A DNA stretch of 64,000 nt from positions 62,001-126,000 of the forward strand of contig JALMQS010000895.1 of the NCBI GenBank assembly GCA_024734495.1, in the 5' to 3' direction. Positions within the stretch are counted from its first letter, which is position 1. Each line of letters begins with the position of its first letter. A program made the translations under genes and the position numbers. Origin of the DNA: Forficula auricularia (Eukaryota; Arthropoda; Insecta; Dermaptera; Forficulidae). Shown piece after piece: positions 8,577 through 63,500 of this stretch. The notes beneath the pieces are model-generated. The model made no database searches, was not told the DNA's origin, and saw only the letters and a list, made by a program, of their open reading frames with translations.

Positions 8577-9240
8577 ATTTATGTTGGCCAACATTTCGGA
8601 TGATCTTCCCTCCTTCTTCAGGGTTCAAAGGATGGATGAAGGAAGCATGTAATATGTTGTCTTCCTCTATTCATTTTCACCAAGGAGCACTGAAAAACAA
8701 GACAGGAAGAATCAGTATTCATTAGAGTGGTTTTAGTGTAAATGAGGAATTTCAAATTATGGGGAAATCAACTGTACAACTCCGGATACTTGTTCATATA
8801 GATAAAAAACTAATAACTGTAAATTTTGAGCAATATCGAACATGGCGTAACCGAATCCTAGCCCTCTAAAGTTTGAAAAAGTAGGTTTTTTCATTTTGGT
8901 CCACCCTAATATTAAACGATAATCAATAAATAAATATGTTTTGGATCTATCAATATAATATATAATTTGGGACCTTTTAATATTATGGTGCACCAAAATG
9001 AAAAAAAAAGGAATAAACCAATTTTTCCCAACTTTAAAGGGCTAGTGCTCGGTTACGCGATGTTCGATATGGCTCAAAATCTACAGTTATTAGTTTTTCA
9101 TCTATACGAACAAGTTTCCGGGTTTTCCCGTTGATTTCCGCATACTTCTAAAATAAAAACCACTCTAGTATACATGCTTCCTTCATCCACTCTTTGCCCA
9201 TGAAGAAGGAGGGAAGATCTTTCGAAACGTAGGTTCAAAA
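8577..9240. repeat. Double-layered palindrome with hammerhead-like motif
   Basis: The outer arms (8577-8665 and about 9165-9240) share GATCTTCCCTCCTTCTTCA and GGATGAAGGAAGCATGT in inverted orientation. The inner arms (about 8720-8900 and 8990-9165) share AAAAAACTAATAACTGTA and its complement around a centre near 8945. The outer repeat carries a CTGAAGA...GAAA motif on the minus strand (8594-8621). Related sequence is at 29600-30720 and 63270-63500. Confidence 0.78.
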
Positions 9241-9507
9241 GTCGTAAAGAGAAAACATAAAAATAAATACTCTTTTAATTAAATTAATCTTTTAATTTAT
9301 TTCTGGACTGCCTTCCATTCAATCCTCAATTATAATAGGGGTTACTGCGGAACTCATTCGAAATGCTTATGGAACACCTGTTGGGAACCACTAATATAGA
9401 CGAATAAATATTTTTTTTTTCTCTCTATTATCTATCTTGTCTAATTTACCGTGGTGTGTGTTTTTTGTTTTCGGGTCGGTCAGCTTGTGCGGTGAGTGTG
9501 CCTCGTG
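9241..9507 (+). promoter_or_regulatory. Upstream region / putative 5' UTR of first exon A
   Basis: AT-rich sequence with a pyrimidine tract at 9412-9425, becoming GC-richer from 9470. An in-frame TGA at 9493-9495 lies 13 bp before the ATG at 9508. TCGGTCAGCTTG near 9475-9487 could be an initiator-like element or an acceptor for an upstream non-coding exon; the sequence does not decide between them. Confidence 0.35.
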
Positions 9508-9847
9508 ATGCCCGCTCCGGAGGCGGGCAGCCCCTCGCCTGCACCCCCGATCGTCGTCAACCCCTGTACAGCCACCCCGCAGTCCCTGGGCGTCTCTGTC
9601 GCGGCTGTTGCTGCTGCAATTGAGGCCAAACTCGAGGATGCTGCATCGGCTGTTTCCGGAGGTCCTCTGCCGCCGGCGTTGCCGCCACGACCACCTCCAC
9701 GGCCAAGAACATCGGCTTCGCAGGGGGCCGCTCCAACTGCAGCCGATTTGGCCGCCGTCGCTGCTGCAGCGGCTGCATCGGCCGCGGCAGTTGCAGCTGC
9801 AGCCTCATCGGTCAATCATCGCAACCTCACAACATCAACCCGTCTCG
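9508..9847 (+). CDS. Alternative first coding exon A (Ala/Pro-rich N terminus)
   Basis: ATG at 9508 (G at -3) is the first ATG after an in-frame TGA at 9493-9495. The exon encodes 113 residues plus one base and ends at CTCG|GTGAGT, a strong donor, in phase 1. That is the phase required by the acceptor at 34064. The product starts MPAPEAGSPSPAPP, has a PPRPPPRPR stretch and an alanine-rich run of about 30 residues written with mixed GCN codons. It has no signal peptide and no membrane segment, so it should lie in the cytosol before TM1. Alanine GCN codons also read as alanine-rich on the other strand, but only this strand offers a start, a good donor and matching phase. That it joins this gene is inferred from phase and strand, across a 24-kb intron. 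Confidence 0.62.
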
Positions 9848-9987
9848 GTGAGTCAAAACAGCCACGATTTACTCTTCTTTTATCTAATTTATGTATATAC
9901 TATGATTTTCAAATATTGGTATACATAATACTAACAATGTCAATAATTCTTATTTATTATTATAATAATACAAATTAATTTTAAATA

Positions 9988-10621
9988 GTACCTGGCCACC
10001 GAGCGATGCTCGGTAACTTTTTGCTTCAGTTAAAAGCTATAAATCAATCCCCGAAACCCCCGACCTCCCCGGTCTCCCCACCTCCTACACCCCCCACCGC
10101 CACCTACACCCCCACCCCCGAAACCCCGTACCTCGCCCCCTGGATCCCCCACTCCCTGCACTCCCACCGTTACCTCCACCCCCGCACCCAGTTTTTGCAT
10201 TTCTAGCCTTCTAGTGGCCCACCGATTATGTGTATATAGGAATATAAATAAATACCGAATAATTTTTTTTTTCAGTTCATCAATTAAATTGCCAAATTTT
10301 AATATACATATAATAATATTTGTAATGATCTTTTTGTGGAGTTTAAAATTGAAAAACCAATTAAATATTAAAAGGAAATTGAATAAAAATGTAATTATAC
10401 ATTTTTATCGAGACAACCACCTGTGAATAATTATTTCAATTAACAAAACCCATCAAGAACAACTTAGCCGAATCTGAGACCGTAGCAGATCGAAATGTCA
10501 AGCCCAAAACCCTATAACCTGTGAATTTCATCCAAATCGTTATAGCCGTTTTCGAGAAACCGATTCTATATATATATATATACATATGTGTACAAAAATT
10601 GCTCGTTTGGGTTGTAATAAG
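9988..10621 (-). mobile_element. Helitron-like element, second copy
   Basis: Same termini as 2146-2935: GTACCTGG at the left end, GCTCG..TAATAAGATC at the right. Just inside the left end is a perfect 7-bp hairpin, ACCGAGC-GAT-GCTCGGT (9998-10014). It shares the internal segment CCCATCAA.AACAA...GACCGTAG.CAGATCGAA with the first copy. A very C-rich block fills 10048-10190. Non-coding. Confidence 0.55.
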
Positions 10622-16962: not shown

Positions 16963-17689
16963 CTTTAGTGATTTATCGAAAGAAACGATTCTGTTAAAAC
17001 CACCTACATTTTAATGACTATTTATTTGTGTCTTAGATCTTTAAAGAAATCGGGTGTACTACTCAATGTTACCTACAATTTTTTTTTTGCTTTTGGGCAT
17101 CATTTATGGGGGATGAGCCCCCGGAAGACCCGCCCTTGATCTATACTTATGGTAGGCTATTTTGCAACACTTTTTTTTTTAATTATATTGATGCTTGAAG
17201 GATTTACAAGAAGATGTAGATTTATCCATTTTTGTGAAATTCACGAAAAAATAAATTAGTACCTACCTACTAATGTTTCAATTAAAAACAAGTGAGTTTT
17301 TTGAACTTTGGAAAAATATTATATTTTTCAAGAATCTAAGGCCGACTCCGAACACACAATAACTGAAGAAGAAAGACCTGTAACTATGGTCCCAAAATAT
17401 TGTATTGAAATTGGTATCAAAATATTGTCTCTCCAATGTCGGGAATTTTAGATTTTAGTTTAGATTTTGCGGTTCGAAAATGGTAAAAATATAATTTTTC
17501 TATTTTTTTATTTGTTTTTTATTGAAATTTTTAAGTAGTTGTCTTGATAAAGGCATAAAGAAACACAAAGTTTTTAAATTTCAATTTTTTATAATAATAA
17601 ATATATTTCTTTTTAAAACCCACTAATAGTTTAATACAAAAAATGTTATCAAAAAATTAATTAAAAAATTGAATTTATTGGGGTGAGAA
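16963..17689. other. AT-rich intron, no gene seen
   Basis: Several long T runs and no convincing frame or element. Confidence 0.6.
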
Positions 17690-18215
17690 TAATGGAATTG
17701 AAATAATTATCGGAAAAGAGGTTTTTTTTATTTAATTAGTTTTTTCCTCTTATTAAAAACAAGGACTAAAAGATGATCAAGGACACTCGATGGTGGAGAA
17801 GTAATCTCCGGAATCGAAGCTCAAAAACAATGTATGCATAAATTCATGTAAAATAATTGGTTTAATAAAATTTATAAAAATTGAATTTATTCCGAAAGGA
17901 AGAGGATTGGAATTGGATTTGGATTAATTATCGCAAAAGAGTTTTTTTATTTAATTAGTTTTTTCCTCTTATTAGAAACAAGGACTAAAAAGATGATCAA
18001 GGACAGTCGATGATGGAGAAGTAATCTCCGAAGTCGAAGCTCAAATACAATGTATACATTAATTCATGTAAAATAATTGGTTTAATAAAAAATTTTTAAA
18101 AATTTTTAAATTAAATTGAATTTATTCCGAAAGGAAGAGGATTGGAATTGGATTTGGATTAATTATCGGAATGTATACATTAATTCATGTAAAATAATTG
18201 GAACAATAAAATTAA
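17690..18215 (+). repeat. Three tandem copies of SINE-like family G
   Basis: The unit (GGAATT...AATTATCGGAAAAGAGG, TTTTTTCCTCTTATTA, AAGATGATCAAGGACA, AGAAGTAATCTCCG, TTAATTCATGTAAAATAATT) appears at about 17690-17880 and 17895-18110, with a short third piece at 18120-18215. Single copies are at 21484-21680 and, interrupted, at 57029-58428. The A/T-rich tail and the 14-bp duplication at the last site suggest a retroposon; no tRNA box is evident. Confidence 0.8.
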
Positions 18216-18289
18216 AAAAAAAATTGGGTATTCCAAAATGTAATTAAAAATATTTTAAATTGAAAGTTTCTTTTTGCCGAAAGTAGCAG

Positions 18290-18540
18290 AATTTTTATAT
18301 ATTGAAGGAGACAATAAAAGAGTGTGTCTTTTCCTGGAACTATAAATTTTTAATTTATTTATAACCAGACTAGTTTCGAGAGATGACATACATTAATTCC
18401 TCTGAATCAATTGTAATAGACTGATGAAGAGGACAAAGCTCTATAGAAACTATAATCTCGTTATAAATAAATTAAAAATTTATAATTCCAGCAAAAGACA
18501 CACCTTTCTATTGTCTCCTTCAATATAATAATATTTTATT
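18290..18540. repeat. Palindromic element with hammerhead-like motif
   Basis: ATTGAAGGAGACAATA...AAATTTTTAATTTATTTATAA at the left is mirrored by TTATAAATAAATTAAAAATTT...TATTGTCTCCTTCAAT at the right. The loop region holds CTGATGA (18421-18427), AGAG...CTCT and GAAAC (18446-18450). Confidence 0.85.
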
Positions 18541-18849
18541 ATTTTTAAATTTATTACTAAGACAACTTTAGCTGGAGAAAGTATCGCGTTTTGAAAACGT
18601 TCTCTTTTCTTCTTCTTCTGTAACTGCAATTAATTCAAGAAAAAAAAACACCGCTAGCCAAATATAAGACGTTTCGAATTTAATTTTTATTTTTTTTCAT
18701 CAGGACTATATAGATTGATTTTTAATAACTGATCAGACTTTTTCCTCTAGAAAGTTTAGGAAAGGTGTTGGTTTATAGTGTGAAACATATTAAACAAAGG
18801 AATGATATTTAACGGTTATAGAGAAGACAAAATAAAATTAAAAAATTAA

Positions 18850-19130
18850 AATCTTTTAAATTATTTTGAGATTTTTATCTATTCTACACTTGGCTATGAA
18901 CCTTTCATCAGAGGTTAAACAGAACACTGAATATAAAAATTTTACATTGTATCGAATCAATTCTTTCAACTCCCATTGGCTCACCTCCTCCACTCGCCCT
19001 GTACTATAATAACATCGATACAATGTAAAATTTTTATATTCAGTGTTCTGTTTAACTCTCCTGATGAAGGGTTCATATTCCTCGAAATATGTATAGAGAT
19101 AAATAAAAATCTCCAAAATAATTTAAAAGA
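18850..19130. repeat. Palindrome with CTGATGA...CGAAA in its right arm
   Basis: Arms about 18855-18960 and 19015-19125 (TACATTGTATCGA...; AACACTGAATATAAAAATTT and their complements). CTGATGA is at 19061-19067 and CGAAA at 19083-19087, bracketing a GGG..TCC-like stem. Reading frames on both strands come from the symmetry. Confidence 0.85.
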
Positions 19131-19364
19131 TTTTTTAATTTTTTTAATTTTATTTCTCTTGTGAAACACCACTATAACCCGTTAAATAATCATTCCTTTT
19201 TTTCCTCTAGCTTAATTCTTTTGCATTGCTTTTCTAGAAACTTTTGAGGTTATCAAGTTAGAAAAATTTTTAAATATTTATTTTCTTATGGGTGAGGGGC
19301 GATGCTCAATGCTTTACTTAATAATCTCTTAGTGCTCTGATTTTTTTTCCAGATTCCATTGTTA

Positions 19365-19926
19365 GTCCAGGCAAATTACGATTTTAACAGGAAATAATTC
19401 CCCGGTAAAGATTGTATTGCTGTAATAAATTTATTGGTACTCCAATATTACTTCCTAAGTTTCCCCCCAAATCTGTGTTGTGGAAATTTTTCTATGCTTT
19501 CCAAATGAGAAAATTTTCGGAGTTTTTTCATTTTTTCTTGAATAACTCTAAAGCGGCTTATCAAATCAAAAAGATTTCTATAAGATAAATTAAAGCTCTG
19601 GGGGCTGTTTTTTGACAAACGCTAGTACCGGTTCTACTAAACCTAAATAGATGAAATTCTTATCATTTTACGCGTAATTTCAAGAGCTTTAAATTATCTA
19701 ACAGATATACTTTTGATATGATAAGCCGTTTTAGAGTTATTTAAGAAAAACTGAAAAAACTCCGAAATTTTCTCATTTTGAGGTGCGTAGAAAAATTTCC
19801 ATAACACAGATTTGGGGGAAAACTTAGGGTAGTAATATTGGACTACCAATAAAGGTATTACAGCAATAAAATCTTACCAGGAATTATTTCCTGTTTATGC
19901 CATTTTTTCACCTAATTTGCCTGGAC
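19365..19926. mobile_element. Fold-back FB1 copy, centre deleted
   Basis: The ends GTCCAGGCAAATTACG and its counterpart TTTGCCTGGAC are flanked by TA (19363-19364, 19927-19928). Both outer arm parts are present and the middle of the palindrome is missing. Confidence 0.88.
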
Positions 19927-20177
19927 TAAATATAAGACGTTTCGAATTTATTTTTTATATTTTTCATCAGGATGGATTGATTTTTAATAACTATCCCCAC
20001 TTTTTTCTATAGCTTAATTCTTTTGCATTGCTTTCTAGAAACTTCGGATATTATCAAGCCCAAATTTTTATTGTTAGAAATTTTTTTAATTATTCATTTT
20101 CAAATGGGTGAGGGGGATGTTCACTTTTTATTTAATAATCTCTTAGTGCTCTGAATTTTTTTTTCATAGTCCATTGT

Positions 20178-21483: not shown

Positions 21484-21680
21484 TGACGAAAATAATGGAA
21501 TTGGAATAATTATCGGAAAAGAGGTTTTTTCTTTAATTAGTTTTTTCCTCTTATTAAAATCAAGGACTGAAAAGATGATCAAGGACAGTCGATGATGGAG
21601 AAGTAATCTCCGGAGTCGAAGCTCAAATAAAATGTAAACATTAATTCATGTAAAAATATTTGGTTTAATAAAATTTATAA
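21484..21680 (+). repeat. SINE-like family G, single copy
   Basis: Matches the 17690 units from GGAATTGGAATAATTATCGG through TTAATTCATGTAAAA and a TTTAATAAAATTTATAAAAA tail. Confidence 0.82.
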
Positions 21681-22937
21681 AAAAACCAAACGTTATAAAT
21701 ATAGAAAATTAAATTAAGTTAATTTTTTTATTAATTCAACCAAATGAATAATTAAATTAAATATTTATATAATTCATTTGAATATAGATTCTACATCAAA
21801 TGAATATAAATGATATAAGCATGAATATGTTTTTATTATAAATAAACAATATTCAAATTTATATAATTTCTTGTCGTAATTACATATTATTTCATTTAAA
21901 TACCCAACTATTAAATTTAACTATTCCACTATTTTACTCAAATAACAATATTTTCATAATTTACTTATTGGTGCTTGGTTCGAATAGCGGCATCTTAACT
22001 ATTAATATATCTAGAGTTGCTCCAAAAATATGAGAATACTTAAAATAGGTATATCATTTATTCATATTGAAACAGAGATCGATTTCGCCATAATTAACTT
22101 CACCATCTATTAATATCAAATATAATTTCTTAACTATAAATATATCGTTTTTTCAGTGTAGTCATTAACAAATAAATTATATATATGTATATATATCGTA
22201 GATATTTTTATTCATAATATATATATGTATTGTATATGTTTATTTGCATCAAGCAGAGGACAACATCATTGATTTCTCATAATGTACCTATTAGTTTTTG
22301 GCTTAAAGGGAGATTAATAAATAAATAAATATTATTGTTCTTCTTTCTACCTGCTGTTTTTTATATTTTTTATATCTATCGATTGGTCAAGTATAATAAT
22401 TGGATTTTATTCCCGGGAATGTTGTGTGTGTATGTTGGTTGACCAAGCGTGAAAGCTTTCTAAATACTTGTGGGATGCCCTTAAGGGATTTTCTTTCCCC
22501 CTCTATTGATGTTGTTCATCTCTTTTTGCACGCATCACAATACAAAAGTTGCAACTTGGGAATATTTCATTATGGCTCAATCGGAATTGTGCATTTTTAT
22601 TGAGGGTGGTTGGGTCGGGGGTGGCTCTCGGTATACATATACATTGGGAACCAACTCAAATGCTCAAGTTTGGATTTTTTTTTTAAATTGAACAAAAGAA
22701 TGTTTTGTAAAGGTATAAGAAACGATAATTCACGTTCACTCTCGGTGACGTGGATATTTTGTCTGAATGAGAGAAAGGGAAAATAAGTTAAGATTTAGGG
22801 GAAGTCAATAGTTGTGATTCTGAGAAGAATATCACCATTATTAGAAAATTTTTAGTACTTTTCAAGTCATAGTTTTTAATAATTATGGTATAAGTTGGAG
22901 AAAAAATCTTTTCTGAAAAAGTTGTTTTATTTCTTTA
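21681..22937. other. AT-rich intron, no gene seen
   Basis: Very AT-rich to 22390, with TATA/TATG microsatellites near 22178-22240. 22390-22700 is more balanced. Short frames there lack start context, splice signals and recognisable domains. Confidence 0.55.
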
Positions 22938-25160: not shown

Positions 25161-25339
25161 CCACATCAGAACGTGCCAATTTTTTAATTTGAAAATTTCT
25201 ATTGATAAAGGGAGAAATTCTCCCGAATCATTTGAGTTTGATTACAAGCTCGAAGATTGTTTTATAAACGATCTATATTTATTTTAATTATATAACATTC
25301 AATAATTTTTTTTCTATATGTATATATGTTTATTAGAAA

Positions 25340-27616: not shown

Positions 27617-27874
27617 GTCTAATAGGATGGTTCTTATTTTGGGTATTTTTGAAAGTTTATATTTCCCGAGGGTCATATGGTTCGAAATAAATAAACAAAA
27701 AATATCCCCCAAATTTCAAATTTCTATCTCAATTTTAACCTAGTGTTTGCTACACAACGATTAAGTTTCTCATCTAAATCACATGGGGTTTTTGGCATGA
27801 AAATATCAATTTTTTAATTTTTTTTTTTTCACTTATGGAAAGTGGTGTAGGTTTTAGGTGAAACATGATGTTAA

Positions 27875-28124
27875 TTAATAGAGTAAAGGGTGTGTAGTTT
27901 CACAGTGAATGAAATAAAACTCAAAAGAGGTTTATACAAACTCAATATATTTCGGATTATTAGTCCATCATCAGGAGTTTACAAGTTAATACTAATAATA
28001 ATTGAACGAGTGGTCACCATTCTTGATCATGATGGACTAATAATCCGAAATATATTGAGTTTGTATAAACCTCTTTGAGTTTTATTTCATTCACTGTGAA
28101 ACTACACACCCTTTACTCTATTAA
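27875..28124. mobile_element. Inner fold-back 1, carries CTGATGA...GAAA motif
   Basis: The arms are near identical: GGGTGTGTAGTTTCACAGTG, and CAAACTCAATATATTTCGGA with its complement. On the minus strand, CTGATGA (27968-27974), a GGA...TCC stem and GAAA (27950-27953) are bracketed by AAACTC and GAGTTT, which could pair. Confidence 0.88.
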
Positions 28125-28430
28125 TCAATTTTTTATTCCGGCCAAAATAATGGTTAAAAAAATTTGAAACTATGTAGACTTTATCCTTATATAATCGCGC
28201 CCCTACAGTAATAATAGCTATCCTTCAGAATTTTTACAGACTTTTAGCTATTACAATTTTGGAGTTACTATCTAGATAAAATATGTTAGTATTAGTAAGT
28301 TATAGACTCCAAAATTATAATAGCTAAAAATCTGTAATAATTCTAATGGATAGCCTACTATTATAAGGATAAAGTCTAGAGAGTTTCAAATTTTTTGAAC
28401 CATCACTCTGGCCGGAATAAAAAATTGATC
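28124..28430. mobile_element. Inner fold-back 2
   Basis: ATCAATTTTTTATTCCGGCC at the left and GGCCGGAATAAAAAATTGAT at the right are inverted. The inner arms include GACTTTATCCTTATA and TTTTTAGCTATTA with their complements. Non-coding. Confidence 0.85.
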
Positions 28431-29599: not shown

Positions 29600-30720
29600 A
29601 GAACAATTCATTTATTTAAATCTATAATTAAGGATTACAAGGAAGGCAGTCCAAGGATAAATAAATAAATAATTCCTATAATAAAAAAAGAATTATTGGG
29701 AAAGTTTTTCTTATATACATTTAAACGAATGTTTCGGAGCATCTTCTTCTCTCTTTCTTCAGTATTTAAACAAATAAATAGGATCGGCCATCAATAATAT
29801 ATTTTATTTTTATTTTTTTATATACTTATATCTATTTACTCAAAGTGTCAATGAAGGAAGTTTGTAAGAATTATCCTTATTTTCTCCTTTTTATCTGTGC
29901 TCGTTAGTGTTGTATAGATATATAAATATACAGGGTGTTCCACAGATCTAGACGAGTGAAATTTAAAATATTTTTTATTTAAAAAACTATTCATTTTAGG
30001 TATAGGGAATATTTAATAAACTTCTATTGGATTTTTATGTAGAATTCAAAAATGCTAAAATTTATGCCATATTCCATTTGAAAAAATTGAGTATTAATAA
30101 CTTTTTGATTTTCAGAAATAAACGATTATTATTATGGTCATCCTGGATATAAAATTTGAATTTTTATGATTAAGTAAGATTCTTTACTGTCTACTCAAGA
30201 GTTCTGATTAATCAAATTAATTCTACAAAAAATAGTTTAATTATTATTAATTTTTAAAGATGAACGCTAAATTGGTAAATTTTACAAACTATCTAAAATA
30301 ACTCGAAATTATAAATTTGAGACATCGCGTGCATTATACAAAATCATCTTAGTTTTTAACACTTAATCTAATGATGCAAAAATATTTGGGGAGTTCTATT
30401 GAAAATAAGAAAGTTGATAGCGATTGCGGCAAAGCTGAAAGTGTGCAAAAGTTGTCAATAATTTATTTATAAAGAGCATATTCCAAAACATAAATATGTC
30501 AACGTTCAAATCATTCTCTCTCAACTCCTTCCATGAAAACTTTTAATGAACGAGTTCTGTATGGAACACCCTGTATATATATAAATATTATTCATGATCA
30601 ATCCTATTTAATTGTTATAGACCCTGAAGAAGGAGGAAAGATCCTCCGAAACGTCGATTCAAAAGTGTAAAAGGAAAAATTTCAAATACATTTTCTTTCA
30701 TTAGGAAGCATCATTTTAAT
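29600..30720. repeat. Dispersed repeat with hammerhead-like motifs, split by a MITE
   Basis: 29600-29930 and 30576-30720 share CTTCTTC..CAGT, TCAATGAAGGAAG and TCTCCTTTTT..GTGCTCGTT blocks with 8577-9240 and 63270-63500. Motifs: minus strand near 29735-29771, plus strand 30624-30652 (CTGAAGA-A-GGAGG...CCTCC-GAAAC). Confidence 0.65.
29931..30573. mobile_element. Tc1/mariner-type MITE (CAGGGTGTTCC ends)
   Basis: CAGGGTGTTCCACAGA and TCTGTATGGAACACCCTG are terminal inverted repeats, flanked by TA at 29929-29930 and 30574-30575. The 643-bp interior is AT-rich and non-coding. It is inserted in the repeat described at 29600-30720. Confidence 0.85.
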
Positions 30721-31114
30721 TAATTTTATTCTGTACTAGATGAAGGAGGAGGTATCAGCCAAAGATTGAATCACTGGGTTCAATAAAACACCTTTAATAA
30801 GACGTTTCGGCCTGAATTTTATTTGGCCATCTTCAGTCAGGAGTTATACACAAAATGCGGTACACATATGTGATCGAACCAAGCCTTGTCAAAAATATAA
30901 ATTTTTTTAGCTCCATGTGAATTTATAACGTGCCTGGACCCAAAAGTTTCAGAATGAAAGTCAATTTTATAATAATAATAATTTTATTCTTACATCACTG
31001 TCCGGCTCCGAGGAAGAAACTTGCCTACTTAACGTTTTATATTTTATATATAATACAGAAATATTGGATTTTTAAGACAATTTCATCTTAAATAGAATTG
31101 TGAACTCTTATATA
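30721..31114. other. No gene; hammerhead-like motif present
   Basis: On the minus strand 30804-30836 reads CTGAAGA-T-GGCC, a 12-nt loop, GGCC-GAAAC. The remainder is unremarkable intron. Confidence 0.5.
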
Positions 31115-31439: not shown

Positions 31440-33060
31440 AAAAATTGGGGAAGATTATAAATCTTAACCCGTTGTCTGATTAGGACCAAATTTTGCACAG
31501 GTAGCCTTAAAGGTATAATGAAACAAACTTGTTGGTTTAACATAAAAAGAGTGAGTGATTTATTTATTAGAATTAAGAAGAAATTAGAACATACAGTAGA
31601 TGGCGTTAGTGAGATATTTTGATAATTTCAACATCCCCACTCAAAATATCTCTTACACAAACATATTACTTCTCACACCTTAACAATACCTAATGCATTC
31701 ATGAACTTATAATGTTTAATCCGCTGGCATATCTGTTGTACATAAATAGTCAACTACAACAATCTTATTGTTTATAATTTCTCTACAATAATGATACCTA
31801 ACTTCAATATGTTTGGTTCTTTTATGAAAAACTGTATTCATTAATAATTTATGTGCACTTTGATTATCATTATATAAAACAACTTAGTATGTTTTTTTAG
31901 TAATTCCAAATTGTAAGTTTCTTAAATACACTGCTTCTTTGCATGCCTCTGAAATTGTTACATATTCTGCTTCTGCGCTGGAAAGAGCAATGCATCTTTG
32001 TTTACTACAACTCAAAGATATAATGGATCCTGACAATATAAAACAAAAACCTGCATAATAGTCAAGAGCTGGTGACACTTTTGGAGTACGGATTTGACCC
32101 AACTATAAATAATGCGTAATAGTACCGTCTATGATAGTTGTACAAGGAATGGCCAGTCTGGCTGGCCTAAGCAGGTGGACCAGGTACTGCGCATGGTGTG
32201 AGTGCGGTAAAAAATACATATGTGTTAAAAAAATATTTTTGACCCACAATGAAATTATAAAAATTATAATTTATAGTCAATTATAAACATAATATATTCA
32301 CCCCAGACCATTTGAGTGGTGGGACGTGGAACCAGACCACCCCAAAGTGTATTTTACAACATGCAAAAAAATAGCATCAAATATTTTTTTCATGTTGTAA
32401 AAACTACACTTGGGGTTGGTCTCAGTTTCACTCCCACCACTCACATGGTCTAGAGTGTAATATATTATGTTATAATTGACTATAAATTATAATTTTTTAT
32501 AATTTCATTTTGGGTCAAAATATTTTTAAACACATATGTACACACCGACTCACACCATGCGCATGTACCTGGTCCAGCTAGGCCGAGACTGGCCATTCCT
32601 TGTGCAACTATCAGAGACAGTCTGCTGTGCGCATTATTTATGGTTGGGTCAAATCCATACTCAAAATGTGTCATAGCTCTTGGACTATAAGATCTTCTAT
32701 CATTAAGATCGTTAGCATATACATAACCTTCCATATTAATATTTTGATTTTTACAATATTTCAAACCCAAATTACTAGTTTAAATACTTTAGTATTCTTT
32801 TTGCATAAATCCAGTGTACTTCATTATGGCAATTGTTAAATTGATTAAGATTTGACAATCAATATGCTATATCAGGTCTCGTGACTCTTTAGCATACACC
32901 AGACAGGCAATAAGTTGTTGATATGGATTTTGACTTGTAATAACATCTATCGTTTTAATATTTAATTTTGACTCCATTGGAGTATTAGCCGTCTTACATT
33001 CTAACATATTAAACCTGCTTAACAATTGATCAATATACTTCTCTTGACTCAGAGTATGGA
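31440..33060 (-). pseudogene. Ty1/copia retrotransposon remnant: end of RT, RNase H and start of the 3' LTR
   Basis: Minus-strand sequence reads through the end of a copia polyprotein. Near 33050-32880 it gives LLSRFNMLECKTANTPMESK and NPYQQLIACLVYAKESRD; near 32770-32690 GLKYCKNQNINMEGYVYAND and LNDRRSYS. After an insertion it resumes at 32056 with GFCFILSGSIISLSCSKQ and SSAEAEYVTISEACKEAVYL (RNase H). It finishes near 31730 with HYCREIINNKIVVVDYLCTT. A purine tract, GAGTGGGGA, and TGTTGAAATTATC (31622-31636) mark the 3' LTR start. Integrase, gag and most of RT are absent, and several stops are present. It would have copied an RNA genome and degraded the RNA strand of the hybrid; it is dead. 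Confidence 0.85.
32057..32689. mobile_element. Fold-back element inserted in the copia RNase H region
   Basis: Two ~300-bp arms are inverted around about 32373. Examples are CAAGGAATGGCCAGTCT at 32144 against its complement at 32583, and TTGACTATAAATTATAA inverted near 32260 and 32475. It splits the copia frame between DRRSYS and GFCFILSG, which are adjacent in an intact element. Confidence 0.88.
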
Positions 33061-34063
33061 GACTTTAGGGAACTATTAATGTAAAAATTGCTGATATAAA
33101 GAGAGGTATGTTAGAATACTCTCCCACCCCCGAAATGTTGAGGTAGAAATTGAAGTTTTTCAGGATATAAATAAACAAACGCTCAATAAAAATTTCATTA
33201 ACATAAGATAAAATAATTTTATTAGACCCATTAGCCCTCTTCGAATTTTACGATGATGTTTTTTTTTACATATTACAACAAATCATGATGATTATTACAA
33301 TTCTTAAGTTATAAAATAAAGAAAACTTAACTATACATAGTATTAGGTTGGTGCATAATTATCACCTGTTTATATTGGCACGTTTTTCATTAGTGATAAT
33401 TGTAGCTGATTATTTTTTTTTTAATAAAAGTATTCTTCTCTATTTCTTTAAGAAATTGAATCTCGAAAATCATATTCATATTAGTCATAGTATGCTGTAC
33501 CACTACGGTTTGCTAAGAATGAATATTTATAAAATGACAAATATGCAAAGTTAATTTGTTTGAGCCCTGAGGAAGTCAACAAAGTTGACGAAACATTGGC
33601 ATAAAAGAAAAAATAATTGCAAAAGCTATTGCCCTTATTTCCCTACAACAACTTATTAATTTAATCGATGGACATAATTAATAAAAATAAAAAAAAGATA
33701 TATATAAAATTAATGTTTTATCTGTGGTGGTGAGGGTGGGGGTTCGAGGGGGGGGTTCAAGGGGCGAGAACCCCCAGGGCCTTGAAACTAGTTTGCCTAC
33801 TAAAAGAATTATTTTGACATCTGAGAGAGCATATCTCCTACTCCTAAGAGTTTATCCATACTCCCCTAACCCCTCGGTGGCCAAACCTTGGCTGAAATTT
33901 TTACTGGTTTTAGGCAGGTGTATGATAAAGCCATATGACATTTTTTTTTATTATTCTTAATAATACTCTAAAATTAACAAATACATGTGCATTTATATTA
34001 ATAATAATAATAGATCGAGGTCGAGGTAATGAGTAATGGATGGATGTCCTGTGTGTGTTGCAG
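33061..34063. other. Intron; solo mariner-like end and a hammerhead-like motif
   Basis: 33343-33361 reads TTAGGTTGGTGCATAATTA, close to a mariner terminal repeat, but no partner end is nearby. 33567-33594 holds CTGAGGA-A-GTCAAC-AAA-GTTGAC-GAAAC. A G-rich run lies at 33724-33790. Not coding. Confidence 0.5.
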
Positions 34064-34233: not shown

Positions 34234-34798
34234 GTAACAACAACCACCCTGGATATACCTACATTACACCTAATTTATGAAATTGCCTATTTTTTGGAAA
34301 TAGGCTACTTTTTGAAGAATTCATGAGTTATGCTTGCCCATTTATTTTGGATTAAGAAATGTCATTTACCGAATCTCTCCAATGTTTTATGAATAATTTT
34401 TTTGGGTTTCGTACAAAAGCAATACGAGATTCTATTGATGTCGCCAAAATAATGTCTCTTTGTATGTCTGAATAGGGTAAAAACTTCGAAATTTAGAAGT
34501 TATAAGGTCAGGTGGGGTAACTGGGCCAGCTTCTTTTGTTTTCCCAAGGATAGTACTCCATATTTTTGGCTATAACTAGCTAAGCTTCCTCACAATTATT
34601 ACAATATTAATTGAAAGATGAAATTTTCTTCAAATATTCATGATACTTTCAACTTTTGATTATTCAAAATTTTGGAATTATCTTAAGTTGAATGTAAAGT
34701 TTTGCGGTTGGCCCAGTTAAACGCGTTGTGGGGTAATTGGACCAGCCCAGCTTATTTGCTGTTTTTTTAATTTTTAACATCTTTTGAGCAGTTGTATA

Positions 34799-35709: not shown

Positions 35710-36319
35710 GATACATGTTCCCCTATCCCTCAAGGCCCTGGCCGTAGGTAGAATTAGTCTCATTTGTATATGAATTAAAAATAATCAAAGACGTAAGCGA
35801 TTCGGGGTAATTGGGCCCTGACTAGGCTGGCCCAATTGCATCAAGACCTCTATTTTTTTATTCTATTGAATTTTTTAAGGTAGATAAGTTTAAACGCCAA
35901 GTATAATTTTTAAAATCGATTTTTATTATAGAAAATACAAAAAAAGTATCATAAATCAAACAACTAAACAAAATAATTTCATTTTACCCATTGAAATAAA
36001 GTTAAATAAGTTCCTTATGCTTAAGAAAGCCTTAATTAAGTACTTACTCAAGTCTCAATATTTTCAAGGAACTGGGTAAGGCAACTAGGTAAGAAGTAAG
36101 CACATAACTAGGCAAATAAGTAAATAAGTAATTAACTTAACTAAGTACTTAAGTATAAAATAAACTTAAAGAAATTTCTCTAATTTAGGAACACTGAAAA
36201 TTTCCCACCAATATGAAAAAGTGAATTGCGCTAAAAAAATGCGATAAAATTAAAAAGCTCTGGGGTTACAGGACCCCTGGCCCAGTCGCCCCCGGTCCCA
36301 GTTACCCCACCTGACCTTA

Positions 36320-44624: not shown

Positions 44625-46373
44625 TCTTATCCGTTACCTTTGCTGAAGACAGAGAAATCGATTTTAAACCAAAAATAGCGATTGATTCTCATCTAGTACT
44701 TGAGGAATAATCATTCTATATTGGATTTTTGACGTTTCGGTTTTTATTAGTAACAATTGCTGAAGACATGGAGGAATCGACTTAAAATAAAAAATAGCGA
44801 TTGATTCTCATCTAATACTTGAGAAATATCCATTCTATATTGGATTTTTGACGTTTCGGTTTTTATTAGTAACCATTGCTGAAGACATAGAGAAATCGAC
44901 TTTAAACCAAAAATAGCGATTGATTCTGATCTAGTACTTGAGGAATAATCATTCTCTATTGGATTTTTGACGTTTCGGTTTTTATTAGTAACCATTGCTG
45001 AAGACATGGAGGAATCGACTTAAAATAAAAAATAGCGATTGATTCTGATCTAGTACTTGAGGAATAATCATTCTCTATTGGATTTTTGACGTTTCGGTTT
45101 TTATTAGTAACCATTGCTGAAGACATGGAGGAATCGACTTAAAATAAAAAATAGCGATTGATTCTCATCTAATACTTGAGAAATAATCCATTCTATATTG
45201 GATTTTTGACGTTTCGGTTTTTATTAGTAACCATTGCTGAAGACATAGAGAAATCGACTTTAAACCAAAAATAGCGATTGATTCTGATCTAGTACTTGAG
45301 GAATAATCATTCTCTATTGGATTTTTGACGTTTCGGTTTTTATTAGTAACCATTGCTGAAGACATGGAGGAATCGACTTAAAATAAAAATAGCGATTGAT
45401 TCTCATCTAGTACTTGAGGAATAATCATTCTATATTGGATTTTTGACGTTTCGGTTTTTATTAGTAACCATTGCTGAAGACATGGAGGAATCGACTTAAA
45501 ATAAAAAATAGCGATTGATTCTCATCTAGTACTTGAGGAATAATCATTCTATATTGGATTTTTGACGTTTCGGTTTTTATTAGTAACCATTGCTGAAGAC
45601 ATAGAGAAATCGACTTTAAACCAAAAATAGCGATTGATTCTGATCTAGTACTTGAGGAATAATCATTCTCTATTGGATTTTTGACGTTTCGGTTTTTATT
45701 AGTAACCATTGCTGAAGACATGGAGGAATCGACTTAAAATAAAAAATAGCGATTGATTCTGATCTAGTACTTGAGGAATAATCATTCTCTATTGGATTTT
45801 TGACGTTTCGGTTTTTATTAGTAACCATTGCTGAAGACATGGAGGAATCGACTTAAAATAAAAAATAGCGATTGATTCTCATCTAATACTTGAGAAATAT
45901 CCATTCTATATTGGATTTTTGACGTTTCGGTTTTTATTAGTAACCATTCCTGAAGACATAGAGAAATCAACTTTAAACCAAAAATAGCGATTGATTCTCA
46001 TCTAGTACTTGAGGAATAATCATTCTATATTGGATTTTTGACGTTTCGGTTTTTATTGGTAACCATTGCTGAAGACATAGAGGAATCGACTTAAAAATCA
46101 AAAATAGCCATTGATTCTCATCTAATACTTGAGGAATAACAATTCTACATTAGGTTTTTGAAGTTTCGATTATTATTGGTAACCATTGCTGAAGACATGG
46201 AGGAAACGACTTAAAATCAAAAATAACGATCGATTCTTATCTAATACTAGAGGAATAACCTTATTGAATTCCATTTTTGATGTTTTGACTATTAATGGAA
46301 ACCTCTACTGAAAATGTAGAAGAATCGACTTAAAATCAAAAAGACTAAATTCTTTTATGGCAAACAACTCAAG
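44625..46373. repeat. 119-bp satellite with trimeric higher-order structure
   Basis: GCTGAAGAC recurs every ~119 bp from 44641 to about 46306. Two monomer types alternate: type A (CATGGAGGAATCGACTTAAA) and type B (CATAGAGAAATCGACTTTAAA). B monomers are at 44878, 45236, 45592 and 45949, spaced 356-358 bp, so the unit is B-A-A. Each unit opens the same short frame, which is a by-product. Confidence 0.93.
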
Positions 46374-46745
46374 CTTGAGTTGTTTGCCATAAAAAGAATT
46401 TAGTCTTTTTGATTTTAAGTCGATTCTTCTACATTTTCAGTAGAGGTTTCATTAATAGTCAAAACATCAAAAATGGAATTCAATAAGGTTATTCCTCTAG
46501 TATTAGATAAGAATCGATCGTTATTTTTGATTTTAAGTCGTTTCCTCCATGTCTTCAGCAATGGTTACCAATAATAATCGAAACGTCAAAAACCTAATGT
46601 AGAATTGTTATTCCTCAAGTATTAGATGAGAATCGATGGCTATTTTTGATTTTAAGTCGATTCCTCTATGTCTTCAGCAATGGTTACCAATAAAACCGAA
46701 ACGTCAAAAATCCAATGTAGAATGGTTATTCCTCGACTCTTAAAT
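46000..46745. repeat. Mirror palindrome closing the satellite
   Basis: AACAACTCAAGCTTGAGTTG is a perfect symmetry centre at 46373/46374. The sequence to about 46745 is the inverted copy of 46000-46373, including three inverted monomers. The tandem array extends only on the left arm. Confidence 0.93.
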
Positions 46746-47149
46746 GAGAATTATTTTTGAATTAATTTCAATATGAACTACAAATTGCAAGTGATATCTG
46801 ATTAATAATAAAGGAACAAACATATTAATATTTCAAATGAATTTGATAAAGTTTAGCAACGATCCGTTGCAGCTTATTTATAATCATTTCCGTTAAAGTA
46901 CAATGACTGAATCTGCTTCACCTTGCTGCACTAGCTTGGAAAACATTTGAATATTCATTTTGAATTAATTATAAACGAGAATATATGAATACACACCGGT
47001 TAAGTAGCATCAGGTTCCCTTCTAATTAAATCATCTTTTATTATCTATAATATTTTTAATGTGTGAAGGCGCTTATAAGAGAGTCCCCGAAAATAAAATA
47101 TATTTAGCCATAAAATAAAAGTTCCAATTAACATTAGTAGCAGAGTAGG
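46746..47149. other. Intron, no gene seen
   Basis: AT-rich; nothing recognised. Confidence 0.6.
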
Positions 47150-47640
47150 GAGCCTCCAAGCATTTTCTTGCTACACTGGATGCAATTCAGAAGCGAGCAA
47201 TTAAACTAATAGGAGACCCGGCTCTATCCAACTCACTCGACTCCCTGGCTCATCGAAGAACCGTTTCTGCCCTTTCCCTGTACTACAAATACTATCACGG
47301 TGTCTGTTCAGTCGAGCTGAAATCAATTATCCCCCCTAATGCCCTCTTTACGAGAAACACGCGGTTTTCAAACGCTCAGCACCCCTTCGCTGTCAAATTG
47401 GTTAAAAGTCGAACAAGCGCTTTCGCCAACTCTTTTGTCCCTATGACCTCCAGAGACTGGAACTCGCTCCCTGCCACCATCTTTCCCGCGACTTATAACC
47501 TTCAGCTATTTAGGACCCGTATCCACAGATACCTTCGACCCTCCGCCCAACCCATAAAATTCTTTCTTCTTTTCACGATGGAGGGGCCAACCCAGGCCTT
47601 TAGGGGTTGTACCTTTTTGGTGTAACTCCTTCTCTCATCA
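47150..47640 (+). pseudogene. CR1/jockey-like LINE 3' end fragment
   Basis: Encodes LATLDAIQKRAIKLIGDPAL, SLDSLAHRRTVSALSLYYKY and RDWNSLPATIFPATYNLQLF, then LFTMEGPTQAFRGCTFLV. This is the C-terminal tail of a non-LTR retrotransposon reverse transcriptase, homologous to 57200-58146. The catalytic part is absent. Related short fragments are at 48003-48160, 55120-55250 and 59570-59755. Confidence 0.85.
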
Positions 47641-47717
47641 TTATCATAAAAAAAGAGTTAAGATGTTGATAAAGCCAGAGATGGCTGTCCACAATTTATA
47701 AATTTTAAAAAGAGAGA

Positions 47718-47926
47718 AATTCAGCCATTAGGGAAGCCTCTGTCGAATAAAAAACTCCCAATTACAAAAAAACATTTCGGCTTTAATTAGATAAGGCCAT
47801 CTTCAGTTCTTATGAGAATATTTGCAAACTCAATACATTTGTGTTTAACAATGAGTGCAGACAGAGTTTAATTGAGAGTTTGTTTTTCGACAGAGGCTTC
47901 CCTATTGACTGAATTCAAAAAAAAAA
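47718..47926. repeat. Palindrome with hammerhead-like motif
   Basis: GGGAAGCCTCTGTCGAATAAAAAACTC at the left is mirrored by GAGTTTGTTTTTCGACAGAGGCTTCCC at the right. On the minus strand 47775-47806 reads CTGAAGA-T-GGCC...GCC-GAAA. Confidence 0.82.
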
Positions 47927-48002
47927 AAAAAAAAATACTAAAGCTTTTCATTTATTGAATCCTAGTTGTTATTTTTTTATTATAATGATATTGATACAAG
48001 AA

Positions 48003-48160
48003 GAAGTAGCACCAAGAAGGTACAACCTCTGTAGTCCGCGGTGGACCCTTGTATCGTGAAGATAAGAAGAGATTTAGGGATTGGGTAGGAGTCGAAGGTA
48101 TCTGTGGATGCTGGTCTTGAAAGATTGAATGTTATAATTTGCTGGAAAGACTGTTACAGA
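48003..48160 (-). pseudogene. LINE 3' fragment, inverted
   Basis: The minus strand matches the end of 47150-47640 (CCAGCAAATTATAACATTCAATC..., AGATACCTTCGACTCC, AGGTTGTACCTT). Only the last ~50 codons remain. Confidence 0.7.
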
Positions 48161-51919: not shown

Positions 51920-52545
51920 ACCGAGGGGTGAACCGCGACCTAATATGCTGTACACCTACTTCCACTTGTACTTCCAAATATTTCAAAGTACTTCCAAATA
52001 TTTCCAAGTGATTCCAAATATTTTCAAGTACTTCCAAATATTTCCAAGTACTTCCAAATATTTCCAAGTAATTCCAAATACTTCCAAGTACTTCCAAGTA
52101 TTTCCAAGTACTTCCAAATATTTCCAAGTAATTCCAAATATTTCCAAGTACTTCCAAATATTTCCAAGTACTTTCAAATATTTCCAAATACTTCCAAGTA
52201 TTTCCAAGTACTTCCAAATATTTCCAAGTAATTCCAAATACTTCCAAGTACTTCCAAGTATTTCCAAGTACTTCCAAATATTTCCAAGTAATTCCAAATA
52301 TTTCCAAGTGCTTCCAAATATTTCCAAGTACTTTCAAATATTTCCAAATACTTCCAAGTATTTCCAAGTACTTCCAAATATTTCCAAGTAATTCCAAATA
52401 TTTCCAAGTGCTTCCAAAATACTTCCAAGTATTTCCAAGTACTTTCAAATATTTCCAAGTAATTCCAAATATTTTCAAGTACTTCCAAAATACTTCCAAA
52501 GAAGTGTACCCCTACTTCCAATCGCGGATCACCCCTCGCTGAGAA
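51920..52545. mobile_element. MITE family M copy swollen by an internal minisatellite
   Basis: The ends CCGAGGGGTGAACCGCGACC and CAATCGCGGATCACCCCTCG, with subterminal TGTACACCTACTTCC and AAGTGTACCCCTACTTCC, match the ordinary ~130-170-bp copies. Here the interior is about 540 bp of tandem repeat. Confidence 0.88.
51965..52500. repeat. Minisatellite of CTTCCAAATATTTCCAAGTA type
   Basis: A basic ~10-bp unit (TTCCAA.TA/GTA) is arranged in 20-bp and longer nested periods, with a larger block repeating about every 120 bp (52050-52170, 52170-52290, 52290-52410). It is open in several frames on both strands because the unit lacks stops. Not a gene. Confidence 0.95.
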
Positions 52546-52579
52546 CGATCGCAGAATAAATAAGCCGGTCGAAACTTTG

Positions 52580-56626: not shown

Positions 56627-57199
56627 GTAAGAAGAAAAACCTTGTGCGGGGATCCAAAGAAAAATCGAGCGTTTTTTAACTGAATTAAAAATAATATTAC
56701 ATATATCGGTGTTAACAAAAGCAAAAAATCGGTCCTCCAGGTACTAAAGTTCATTAAATGTGATGGTGTCAGGGAAAAGGGCCCTTATCTTCACTTACTA
56801 GTTTTTTCAGGAATGGAAAAATGAGAGTTAAATGTGGGTATAATGTTTGATTACATACACGCAAGATCAAAAAAATCGCACTCCCCCCACATTTTCACTT
56901 CAAACTTGAATATTTTTTAAATTAATTTTTTTCCAAGTACTATTTTGATTAAATTAAAGTACACACACTGTTAGCTCTAAAAACACAAAATGTTTACCTT
57001 TGAACTGCAAAATTATTAGATTACTAACGAAAAAGTGAGAGATAGACATAATGGAATTGGAATAATTATCGGAAAAGAGGTTTTTTTAATTTAATTAGTT
57101 TTTTCCTCTTATAAAAACAAGGACTAAAAAGATGATCAAGGACTGTCGACGGTGGAGAAGTTATCTCCGAAGTCGAAGCTCAAATACAATGTATACATT

Positions 57200-58372
57200 C
57201 ATCATCTTTTTTTTTTTTTTTTTAATGCAATCGAATGCAAGAAGGGGTGCACCAGTAAAGATGTAGCCCCTATGGATCTCGAAAAGACCCTTGCATTACC
57301 GAAGAGAAGGGAAAGTTGATTAAGTGAGAGGGTGTAGACGTAGGTGTCTATGCACCCTGGTTTTGAAGGTTTGAAGATCATAGGTGCTGGGAAAGATAGA
57401 GGCTGGGAGAGAGTTCCAGTTCCTTGAAGTCATGGGGATATATGAATTCGCGAATGAAGTGGTCCGGCACTTTTCTAATTTGACCGCGAAAGAGTGTTGG
57501 GAGTCGGCAAAACGTGTGCTGCGTGCAAAGCATGCTTTGGGGGGAATTATTGATTTTATCTCATCAGAGCACCTGCCGTGATAGTATCTATAGAAAAGGA
57601 AAGGGCGGAGACATCTCTTCGATGAGCCAGCGAGTCGAGGGAGTCGGTGAGGGTAGAATCGTCAATTAGCCTGACGGCTCGTTTCTGAATTGCATCAAGG
57701 GTAGCAAGAGAATATTTTGAGGCTCCTCTCCACAGATGAGAGCCGTATTCGAGATAGGGGCGGATTTGGGCCTTGTAGATGGTGAGAAGTTGTGGGGGTT
57801 TGTAAAATCGCTTGGACCTGAATAAGAAGCCAATCTTCCTTGCTGCAGATTTCGCCACAGAGGAGATGTGTTCATTCCAAGACAGGTCAGATGCGACAGA
57901 GACGCCCAACATGGATAGGCTGTCACACATTTTCAGGGTATTCGAATCGAAGTGAATATCAGGGAAATCTCTATTTTCGCGCCTAGAAATTAGACAACAT
58001 TGAGTCTTGTTTGAATTGAAGTTAACTAAATTTTGAGAGCCCCATTTATTCAGTTTGTCTAGGTCGAGAGTAATTGAGGAGGCAATATTGATTCGATTAT
58101 TCGGGAGAGAGGGTTTGCCGTGTAGAGTGCTATCGTCGGCGTAGCTGCAACATCATCATCAGCCTGTCGATATCGACAATCCACTGCTGAATATAGGCCT
58201 CTTCCATCAAATGGAAGGGGGTTGGCATTAAGTCACCACGCTTGCCAGACGGATTGGCGACTAGGGAATCAGATTCTAGCCGGTCAAATATCAACGCAGG
58301 GACTCGGACTCGAACCGGGACTCTCCCGCTTAGAAGGCTAGTGTCTTTAAGCTCTCGGCTGATCCGATTCCT
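57200..58372 (-). pseudogene. 5'-truncated CR1/jockey-like LINE with poly(A) and 12-bp target duplication
   Basis: AATGTATACATT flanks both sides (57188-57199, 58373-58384). A T run at 57209-57224 is the poly(A) tail on the other strand. The minus strand opens with the RT active-site motif YADDSTLHGK, then LDLDKLNKWGSQNLVNFNSN, LGVSVASDLSWNEHI, YKAQIRPYLEYGSHLWRGAS and LATLDAIQKRAVRLIDD, which is the palm end, thumb and C-terminal tail of a non-LTR reverse transcriptase. Frameshifts near 57590 break the tail. The endonuclease and most of RT are missing. The 5' part (58147-58370) is a SINE. Confidence 0.88.
58147..58370 (-). repeat. tRNA-derived SINE with RTE-type tail, abutting the LINE
   Basis: On the minus strand: GGATCAGCCGAGAGCTTAAA (box A region), AGTCCCGGTTCGAGTCCGAG (box B), then a tail GGAAGAGGCCTATATTCAGC...GATATCGACAGGCTGATGAT ending in GATGATGATG. 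This is a tRNA head joined to an RTE-like 3' end. It lies between the LINE's truncated end and the shared target duplication. Confidence 0.8.
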
Positions 58373-61714: not shown

Positions 61715-61789
61715 TATTAGTTGATAGAGTGTGCAATAGAATTAAAGAATCGTCTAATAGTGTGTTTTCGTTTGTTGATGTGTGTGCAG

Positions 61790-62783
61790 GCGTCTTCCGT
61801 GGTCTCGCGGCGCCCAAGAAGAAGCCCAATACCGAAGGGCGACGTCCAGTCCTGACAGCCAGTACGGGTTCTCTTCCCGAGAGCAGGAGGTAGCTTCACA
61901 GCAGCCGAACCCGGCTCAACAGGCGTACGTGCTGCCGCCCCCTCAGGCTGCATTCGTGGGCACTGACCCCACCGGGCAACAATACTACCTGTGGGGTCCT
62001 CCGCCTCCGTACACGACGCCCCCACAGCACTCGCCGGCGCACCTGGTGCCCCTGCACCACCACCACTGTGCGATGCGCCCTCGTCGCAGCGACGACAACA
62101 AACCCGGCGACGATTATGTGAACGCGGCCGAGGCGGAACGGGTGGCCGTCGAGCCCATGTCCGTGCAGACGCCGGTCGCCCTCGTCGCGGCGCCCAAGAA
62201 AGTGAAAAAACGTGGCGCTGAGATCGGCGCCTCGTCGACGAGAAGCGCCGCAGAGCAGCAGCGGGCGAGCGAGGCCCCTGAGAGCGAGGTCTACTTCGCG
62301 GACGTGTCGTCGTGCTGCAACGAGGGCCAGGACCTCTACGACGAGGCCGAGCTGACCAGCAAGTGCTTCAGCTATCAGCGAGGTCCCTCGGGCCAGGAAC
62401 AGCTCCCGAAGGAGCAGTCGGCGCACAGCCTGGCGCTGTCCTCGCCGGGAACCGAGCTGACGGACCTGAGCGCGATGCAGACGCCGGTCGCCGACCAGCT
62501 GCCCTTCCACAGGGCACTCGCCCCCGACGCCCAGTACGAGACCATCCCGCAGCCCCGGTTTCCAGGCTCCTCGGCCCCGCACCAGCACTACGAGCCAGAG
62601 TGCGAGAGCGAGTCGGCGCAGCCGCCGTCCAACTGCTACTCCGACGCGACCATGGACTCGGGCTGCCACAGCGGGTCCGAATTTGCGCCCCGAAGACGCC
62701 CTGGCAGCCTGCGAGTCGCCGCCCCCGCGCTTACCAAAGAGCCCGCAGAGCCTGTACCCGCCATCCGATCCGTCAACGTCTAA
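61790..62783 (+). CDS. Terminal coding exon: proline-rich cytosolic tail with PPPPY
   Basis: Acceptor GATGTGTGTGCAG|GCGTCT completes the split Arg423 codon (AG|G). The frame runs 331 residues to TAA at 62781-62783. LWGPPPPYTTPP (PPPPY at 493-497) is a canonical PPxY ligand for WW domains, as expected if the protein recruits a NEDD4/ITCH-type ligase. Other features: a histidine run (PLHHHHC), a basic cluster APKKVKKRG (558-564 core), SEVYFADVSSCCN, many Ser/Glu/Gln-rich stretches and TMDSGCHSGSEF. The tail is otherwise disordered-looking. The exon is strongly GC-rich, so all six frames are open for long stretches; phase and splice site select this one. Confidence 0.85.
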
Positions 62784-62900
62784 ACGTCCTAAACGGCACG
62801 CCCACGCACACAATCACTCGTTCTTCCTTATCGTCTCTCACCCCCAGGACACAGATTATCAAATCCCTTATTAATAGAGATCCATAGACCAAATAAACGA
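62784..62900 (+). terminator. 3' UTR with AATAAA polyadenylation signal
   Basis: AATAAA at 62892-62897, 109 bp after the stop codon, within an abrupt return to AT-rich sequence. Further AATAAA hexamers near 63217 and 63295 could serve longer transcripts. Confidence 0.6.
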
Positions 62901-63269
62901 TTCTCAGTGGCCTATTCAAAATACATCTCAATTTCAAATGATTTAAACTTTTTTCTGGTCTATATATAAATAGTATACCACTCGAAAGTAATATTACAAA
63001 GTAATCAAAGTTATAAAAACTACCAAGAAAAACTCTCCTCCTTCAATTAAACCCCCCCACGACAATTCACTTAGAGAAAAATCCTAAAAATGGTGGTAAC
63101 CTCCCCCCATAGATAGCAACCCAACAAACAACCCCATTTTAGTTGTTCTAGGTATCGCATTTTTAGTTCACAAGTGGGGAAGCTGGTAAACAACCTTCCA
63201 AACTCAACTTTATAATAAAACAATCAGGAACATAATATTACTATATAACAAGTTTATTTAAAAAATATT
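62901..63269. other. Downstream flank, no gene seen
   Basis: AT-rich with C runs near 63051-63058. Nothing recognised. Confidence 0.6.
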
Positions 63270-63500
63270 GCTTCCATTAATTGAGCATTCAGGAATAAAT
63301 AAATAGATTATTTTCCATTAAAATATGTAGTATTTATTGGACGATTTTCTCTTTTTGAACCGATATTTCGGGCGATCATCCCTTCTTCTTCAGGGTTCAA
63401 AGGGTCAATGAAGGCATCATCTAATATTTTTCCTTCTTTTCTCCTTTTTCAGTGCTCGTTGATATTGAGAAAATATTTTGAGTTTTTCCATTATTAATAG
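63270..63500 (-). repeat. Dispersed repeat with hammerhead-like motif
   Basis: Shares CTTCTTCTTCAGGGTTCAAAGG, TCAATGAAGGCATCAT and CAGTGCTCGTTGATATTG with 8577-8760 and 29840-29910. On the minus strand 63366-63393 reads CTGAAGA, a GGG...CCC stem, GAAA. Confidence 0.72.

Follow-up and report, generated by a model that had tools for sequence, protein, structure and literature searches.

The window analyzed here, 64,000 nucleotides of Forficula auricularia contig JALMQS010000895.1 (positions 62,001 to 126,000 of the forward strand), holds a clear record of insertion of the type known from Penelope-like elements (PLEs). It contains what read as old copies of a known kind of hammerhead ribozyme, numbering over a dozen, most of them decayed and with activity that is only predicted. 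These motifs most probably represent the minimal type I hammerheads of PLEs, preserved in remnants that lack a reading frame (repeats, solo or in inverted arrangement, resembling pseudo-long terminal repeats, pLTRs) whose copies would have been made by the PLE machinery. We directly observe the motif itself, covariation of its stems, inverted pairs of copies, three pairs with arms of unequal length, and two 12-bp target duplications.

Architecture and covariation of the motif

The initial annotation had described a core that recurs on both strands, and all 11 of its coordinates read as given. Absent from that description was stem I: the strand 5' of CTGANGA is complementary to the strand directly 3' of GAAA-YR-UH, as in TTTGAACC/GGTTCAAA at 63393-, GTAAACTC/GAGTTTGT at 27974-, and CATAAGAA/TTTTTGTA at 47806- (sites are designated by position and strand). 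The predicted fold would thus consist of stem I with an open end, CTGANGA, an unpaired A or T, the stem II hairpin, GAAA, and Y-R-U-H, with cleavage predicted after H. This layout reads as that of a type I hammerhead in which stem I is open and stem III is reduced to a short A-Y/R-U pairing, and by analogy it appears to match the minimal dimer-type hammerhead reported from PLEs. Such minimal type I hammerheads are said to have been described by Cervera and De la Pena in 2014 and by Luense, Weinberg, and Breaker in 2017. The spacing from GAAA to U is two bases, or four in families D and F, and helix III is made of the conserved bases only (one pair longer in those two families). A-Y-R-U is self-complementary in several copies, so that stem III is unable to close inside one molecule.

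The sequence of stem II varies by family while its pairing is kept (GGAGG/CCTCC, GTCAAC/GTTGAC, GGCC/GGCC, and GGA/TCC). In a MAFFT alignment of 10 rows, in which stem I of D and F is shifted out of register, 72.0% of the cells in stems I and II are paired, versus 58.1% in shuffles, and both sides have changed in 17 cases versus 7.4. The covariation score is 0.415, compared with 0.184 for shuffles and at most 0.157 for slid registers; a 13-row alignment, which was fitted to the model, gives 0.435 versus 0.195 and at most 0.214. Both stems are kept by compensatory change, with stem I open, as in the minimal type I hammerhead of PLEs, and the earlier observation that the stems differ but still pair holds up in this comparison.

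An unpaired A or T, also pointed out in the initial annotation, separates A9 from stem II in families A to G, and it occurs in 7 of 7 sites found with a descriptor that permitted either form. A viroid hammerhead with an additional nucleotide in its core was reportedly described by De la Pena and Flores in 2001. Sequences similar to those seen here are known from other animals. A comparison of this base in viral contigs yielded no usable relatives.

Frequency of the core and covariance models

The word CTGANGA has 46 matches in the window, versus a mean of 17.6 and a maximum of 32 in shuffled sequences; a 119-bp satellite (44643-46677), which is not part of the finding, supplies 16 of them, leaving 30. 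The longer pattern CTGANGA-N{8,30}-GAAAC matches 8 times (shuffles, mean 0.44, maximum 3). The descriptor combining the core, stem II of at least 3 bp, GAAA, and UH selects 7 sites, versus a mean of 0.315 and a maximum of 3 in 200 Markov sequences, and 5 sites (mean 0.09, maximum 2) when at least 5 of 8 pairs in stem I are also required. Thus, the exact core with a UH cleavage site, CUGANGA...GAAA, is present at 7 sites where 0.3 would be expected, with 9200+ and family G departing from it. Relaxed scoring finds 7 sites at a score of at least 9, versus 0.1 in 60 Markov sequences, and in the reversed window no site at a score of at least 5. A search blind to the core (a hairpin followed by GAAAYRTH) returns 35 sites versus 13.1, 13 of the 35 belonging to the satellite.

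That a core word of this kind arose by chance in A/T-rich, palindrome-rich DNA is hardly credible. The shortness of the core and the inflation of counts by copies of a single family would speak for it, but the excess in the descriptor and relaxed-score searches, the covariation, and the empty reversed window all argue against chance, as does the fact that, among 152 viral-contig stretches that fit a core pattern, only 2 passed the stem I test. Recurrence of the core on both strands at more than the frequency of shuffled or Markov sequence is therefore borne out.

Three covariance models were built, R1 from 10 rows, R2 from family A alone, and R3 from 13 rows. R1 recovers the rows that it was built from and, in addition, 8399- (E value of 0.0015), 19970- (0.003), and 18703- (0.013). 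R2 finds families B (E = 2.9e-5) and E (0.0036), and R3 adds 25202+ (0.038) and, weakly, 5340- (0.12). Both the covarying stems and the model hits beyond the training rows speak for a hammerhead. The check with hammerhead covariance models that the initial annotation proposed was positive with our own models outside their training rows and negative with those of Rfam (see below), so that one refuting condition named in that annotation, the lack of a model hit, applies in part.

Families of hammerhead copies

Stem II is readable in seven families (A to G, with B perhaps distantly related to A); two others, H and X, are weaker. Beyond the sites already annotated, the families include 9200+, 29762-, and family G. 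The copies of family A, all training rows of R1, lie at 8581-8633 (-; core at 8621, 51.2 bits), 9188-9240 (+; the partner of 8621-, with core ATGAAGA in which C3 is lost, 49.2 bits), 29719-29774 (-; a tailed arm, 51.4 bits), 30612-30664 (+; a tail-less arm with stem II intact, 53.5 bits), and 63353-63405 (-; stem I of 8 bp perfect, stem II broken, 49.4 bits). Family B is found at 33555-33606 (+), with stem II GTCAAC/GTTGAC, and family C at 30792-30848 (-), with stem II GGCC/GGCC and a weak stem I; the latter is a training row of R1. In family D, the left arm (27934-27986, -), found by the descriptor and R1, retains an intact core and stem I, and the right arm (28018-28060, +; R1, E = 0.72) is truncated at the core. 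Family E (47762-47818, -) lies in a palindrome whose outer arms are non-LTR element ends. Family F has a right arm at 19049-19100 (+), a training row of R1, and a left arm at 18854-18923 (-; R1, E = 0.43) with a deletion at the cut region. The hammerhead-like copies of family X, with A/T-only stem II, are at 18659-18715 and 19924-19982 (both -; outside the R1 training rows), and that of family H, with an irregular stem II, is at 18409-18456 (+; R1, E = 3.1 only), in the palindrome 18280-18545.

In family G, the C3-G8 pair is replaced by U3-A8 in 3 of 3 copies. The core is TTGATAA at the hammerhead-like 8360-8411 (-; not a training row of R1) and at 25190-25244 (+), where GAAT replaces GAAA, and TTCATAA at 5301-5352 (-). 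Natural U3-A8 covariation in hammerheads is already in print, and such cores are active in vitro (PMC3088659, cited in part). Family G is such a natural variant: it has U at position 3 and A at position 8 in all three copies, like the variants covered in the cited part of that paper; unlike them, it consists of dispersed animal repeats that have no stem III, and for two of the three copies the E values are no better than 0.04 to 0.12.

A further candidate at 17351-17410 (+), with the core-like CTGAAGAA and a GACC/GGTC hairpin (E = 0.025 with R1, 0.022 with R2, and 0.45 with R3), has CAAA in place of GAAA and was not counted.

Inverted pairs, target duplications, and arm ends

Head-to-head inverted pairs with the ribozymes outward are formed by 8621-/9200+, 29762-/30624+, 18911-/19061+, and 27974-/28029+, so that head-to-head inverted terminal repeats, as in PLEs, are seen at four pairs; 18421+ and 47806- likewise lie inside palindromes. 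Inverted-repeat structures make up 23.8% of the window and contain 9 of the 17 sites tested, those within one structure not being independent; the earlier remark that many copies lie in palindromes was a fair one. Inverted repeats with no ribozyme-like motif occur, for example, at 3433-4724, 19386-19895, 32058-32688, and 34793-35715.

Two of the seven placements tested are flanked by perfect 12-bp target duplications. The palindromic insertion of family F (18751-19198) lies between two copies of TTTTTCCTCTAG (18739-18750 and 19199-19210) and interrupts a copy of family X; an uninterrupted relative holds the site once, in a slightly different form. The insertion of family D (27817-28123) lies between two copies of ATCAATTTTTTA (27805-27816 and 28124-28135) and, together with them, sits inside another palindrome. 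In this search, boundaries were set by eye with 30 bases of slack, and 5 of 150 random placements reach the F/D score.

The arms of one insertion differ in length. In family A, they end 105 nt (29762-) and 103 nt (9200+) past the cut, versus 71 nt (30624+), values stable under two cost settings; the D arms end at ~127 versus 67 nt, and the left arm of F is ~48 nt longer than the right. In the three pairs with both ends readable, one arm is therefore 32 to 60 nt longer, like the published optional tail of PLEs. A single 72/104-nt rule for all families was dropped, as the values are 71 and 103 to 105 in A, 67 and 127 in D, and 105 and longer in F, with those in G depending on alignment costs. 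By eye, the D and F tails have GTGAAAC/GTTTCAC and AAACC-ACACC in common; the F tail stem did not appear in the computed fold. At 8621-, a single case, the sequence shared with relatives ends where the cut is predicted, a pattern compatible with a cleaved template.

The type I form, the low G+C content, and the self-pairing of the D and F elements (0.73 to 0.79 of bases paired in the fold) would also suit non-autonomous retrozymes of metazoans, which are small circular RNAs that carry type I hammerheads and are copied back by PLE enzymes, and family X does have two direct copies ~1.3 kb apart. Yet the pairs found here are inverted, the retrozymes described in the cited parts of PMC7229834 and PMC7761336 are tandem repeats of 150 to 400 bp with mostly fuller ribozymes, and TRF detects no tandem array carrying the full core in the window, which makes a retrozyme origin very unlikely. 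The initial annotation had linked the cores to both PLEs and retrozymes; the former link is supported, by anatomy and not by protein, and the latter is not. A search of plasmid records with one of the palindromes gave no match.

Probable relationship to Penelope-like elements

Under the PLE reading, efficient cleavage would probably require two ribozymes paired as a dimer, or the help of the element's protein. The ribozyme-bearing RNA would be reverse transcribed on each of the two nicked target strands, starting internally at ~70 to 130 nt past the cut. The product would be a head-to-head inverted pair with ribozymes outward, in which a tail lengthens one arm, flanked by a target duplication of ~12 bp. 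Cleavage, dimerization, the PLE enzyme, and the both-strand mechanism are what we infer from the observed structures.

Similar structures are known from the Penelope elements of Adineta vaga, which show head-to-head inverted pLTRs, duplications of 8 to 10 bp, palindromic junctions, solo pLTRs, and an optional 31-bp tail on one inverted pLTR, and for whose inverted forms the authors favored self-priming (PMC3846280, cited in part). The window resembles the cited account in its head-to-head inverted pairs, palindromic junctions, solo repeats, and one-arm tails and differs from it in the lack of an open reading frame (ORF), in tails of 32 (A), 48 (F), and 57 to 60 nt (D), and in duplications of 12 bp, which were seen at two of seven placements. 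The purified protein of PAc, a Poseidon of Anolis carolinensis, cuts and extends both target strands; its reverse transcription begins at two internal sites, with an AC-rich stem-loop at the start and the ribozyme upstream (PMC11167929). The ribozyme lies likewise upstream of the internal starts suggested here by the arm ends, at ~70, 105, or 127 nt past the cut, compared with ~85 to 92 nt by our own arithmetic from the PAc numbers, and no protein was seen here. Cleavage by the PAc ribozyme depends on the protein, and insertion in vitro does not need the ribozyme (PMC11167929), which argues against cleavage being required for insertion.

Minimal type I hammerheads that lack helix III number in the thousands in many metazoan genomes; most are dispersed, and their in vivo role in PLEs has been called a mystery (PMC7761336, a review cited in part). 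By comparison, the hammerheads of the window appear to match this dispersed kind: they have the CUGANGA and GAAA core, a helix III limited to the conserved bases, a dispersed non-coding setting, and a dimer-type layout. Their place in inverted pairs without an ORF distinguishes them from the hammerheads as described in the cited part of that literature, and the unpaired A or T that follows CTGANGA in families A to G may do so as well.

Several observations weigh against the hammerhead or the PLE reading. R2 reaches families C (E = 0.87) and D (left arm, 1.1) and one X copy only at E values of 0.7 to 1.1 and misses 19061+ of family F at E values up to 2. A scan of the window with Rfam 15 gave no hits at the gathering score, and none of its 29 matches at E values up to 10 is to a hammerhead family, probably because stem III is missing; the top matches, microRNA families fitted to palindromes, were taken as chance. 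Stem II is uncertain, being A/T only, at 18703- and 19970-, 3 of its 4 pairs are nonstandard at 63393- according to cmsearch, and three bases separate it from GAAA at 18421+. Stem I is weak at 8621- and 30836- (4 of 8 pairs) and at 30624+ (5 of 8). The 63393- arm ends at 72 or 86 nt, and most other end estimates in family A shift with alignment costs. The search for duplications found none at 4 of 7 placements (both family A pairs, E, and one further placement), and the duplication at H is weak (score of 10, equaled by 10 of 150 random placements). Palindromes free of ribozymes are common in the window. Finally, a scan of 20 of the 83 frames turned up no PLE reverse transcriptase (RT) or GIY-YIG protein; it was insensitive, since a known RT fragment within it also gave no RT hit. 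The PLE assignment thus rests on anatomy. Non-autonomous copies would carry no RT or GIY-YIG frame.

Some of these points would suit hairpin DNA elements, of the foldback kind or resembling miniature inverted-repeat transposable elements, moved by a transposase with the hammerheads as passengers picked up in the inverted arms: the insertions resemble hairpin elements, most inverted repeats in the window lack the motif, and the scanned frames hold no PLE protein. This explanation is improbable, however, given that within one insertion the arms differ in where they end on the outside and in where they are truncated on the inside, and that the same ribozyme layout recurs in repeats that share no other sequence at an E value of 1e-4; duplications of 12 bp are also long for most cut-and-paste families.

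Within the PLE reading, we tentatively raise the possibility, itself rather doubtful, that the ORF-less hammerhead hairpins are a non-autonomous class of their own that PLE enzymes multiply in trans, each insertion arising by priming on both strands from two start sites at the measured distances past the ribozyme, and the fold serving as a ruler or recognition element for the RT apart from cleavage. If copies across the genome prove to start at one or two preferred distances, with pairs regularly tailed and tail-less, PLE priming on both strands would be seen in a genome; once such distances were confirmed, the role of the ribozyme could be approached by counting sequence ends.

Other repeats and coding sequences

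The 119-bp satellite forms a block of ~14 copies at 44636-46342 (+) and an inverted one of ~2 copies at 46487-46734. It was rejected as a ribozyme, having on one strand a GGTT..AACC hairpin followed by GAAACGTC with no hammerhead core; R1 matches only its stem II-to-GAAA part (E = 2.7). A retrozyme-sized 220-bp repeat is present as a tandem pair at 17693-18168 and singly at 21496-21684 and 57053-57241. Its hairpin, TCGATGA-T-GGAG/CTCC-GAAG, resembles a broken hammerhead, and the tandem is not among the R1 hits at E values up to 5.

The G+C content of the window is 28 to 41% per 4-kb step. A non-LTR RT is encoded at 57556-58152 (-), with 165 hits, among the listed matches one from the beetle Callosobruchus maculatus at 38% identity. 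The 3' ends of non-LTR RT elements lie inverted on both sides of ribozyme E (47149-47673 and 47969-48150), with a further copy at 57198-57726. A 20-bp tandem repeat of 27 copies at 51968-52499 is open on both strands as repetitive protein frames. An open frame of 334 residues at 61779-62780 (+), possibly a host exon, has one full-length relative, 97% identical, on a short contig.

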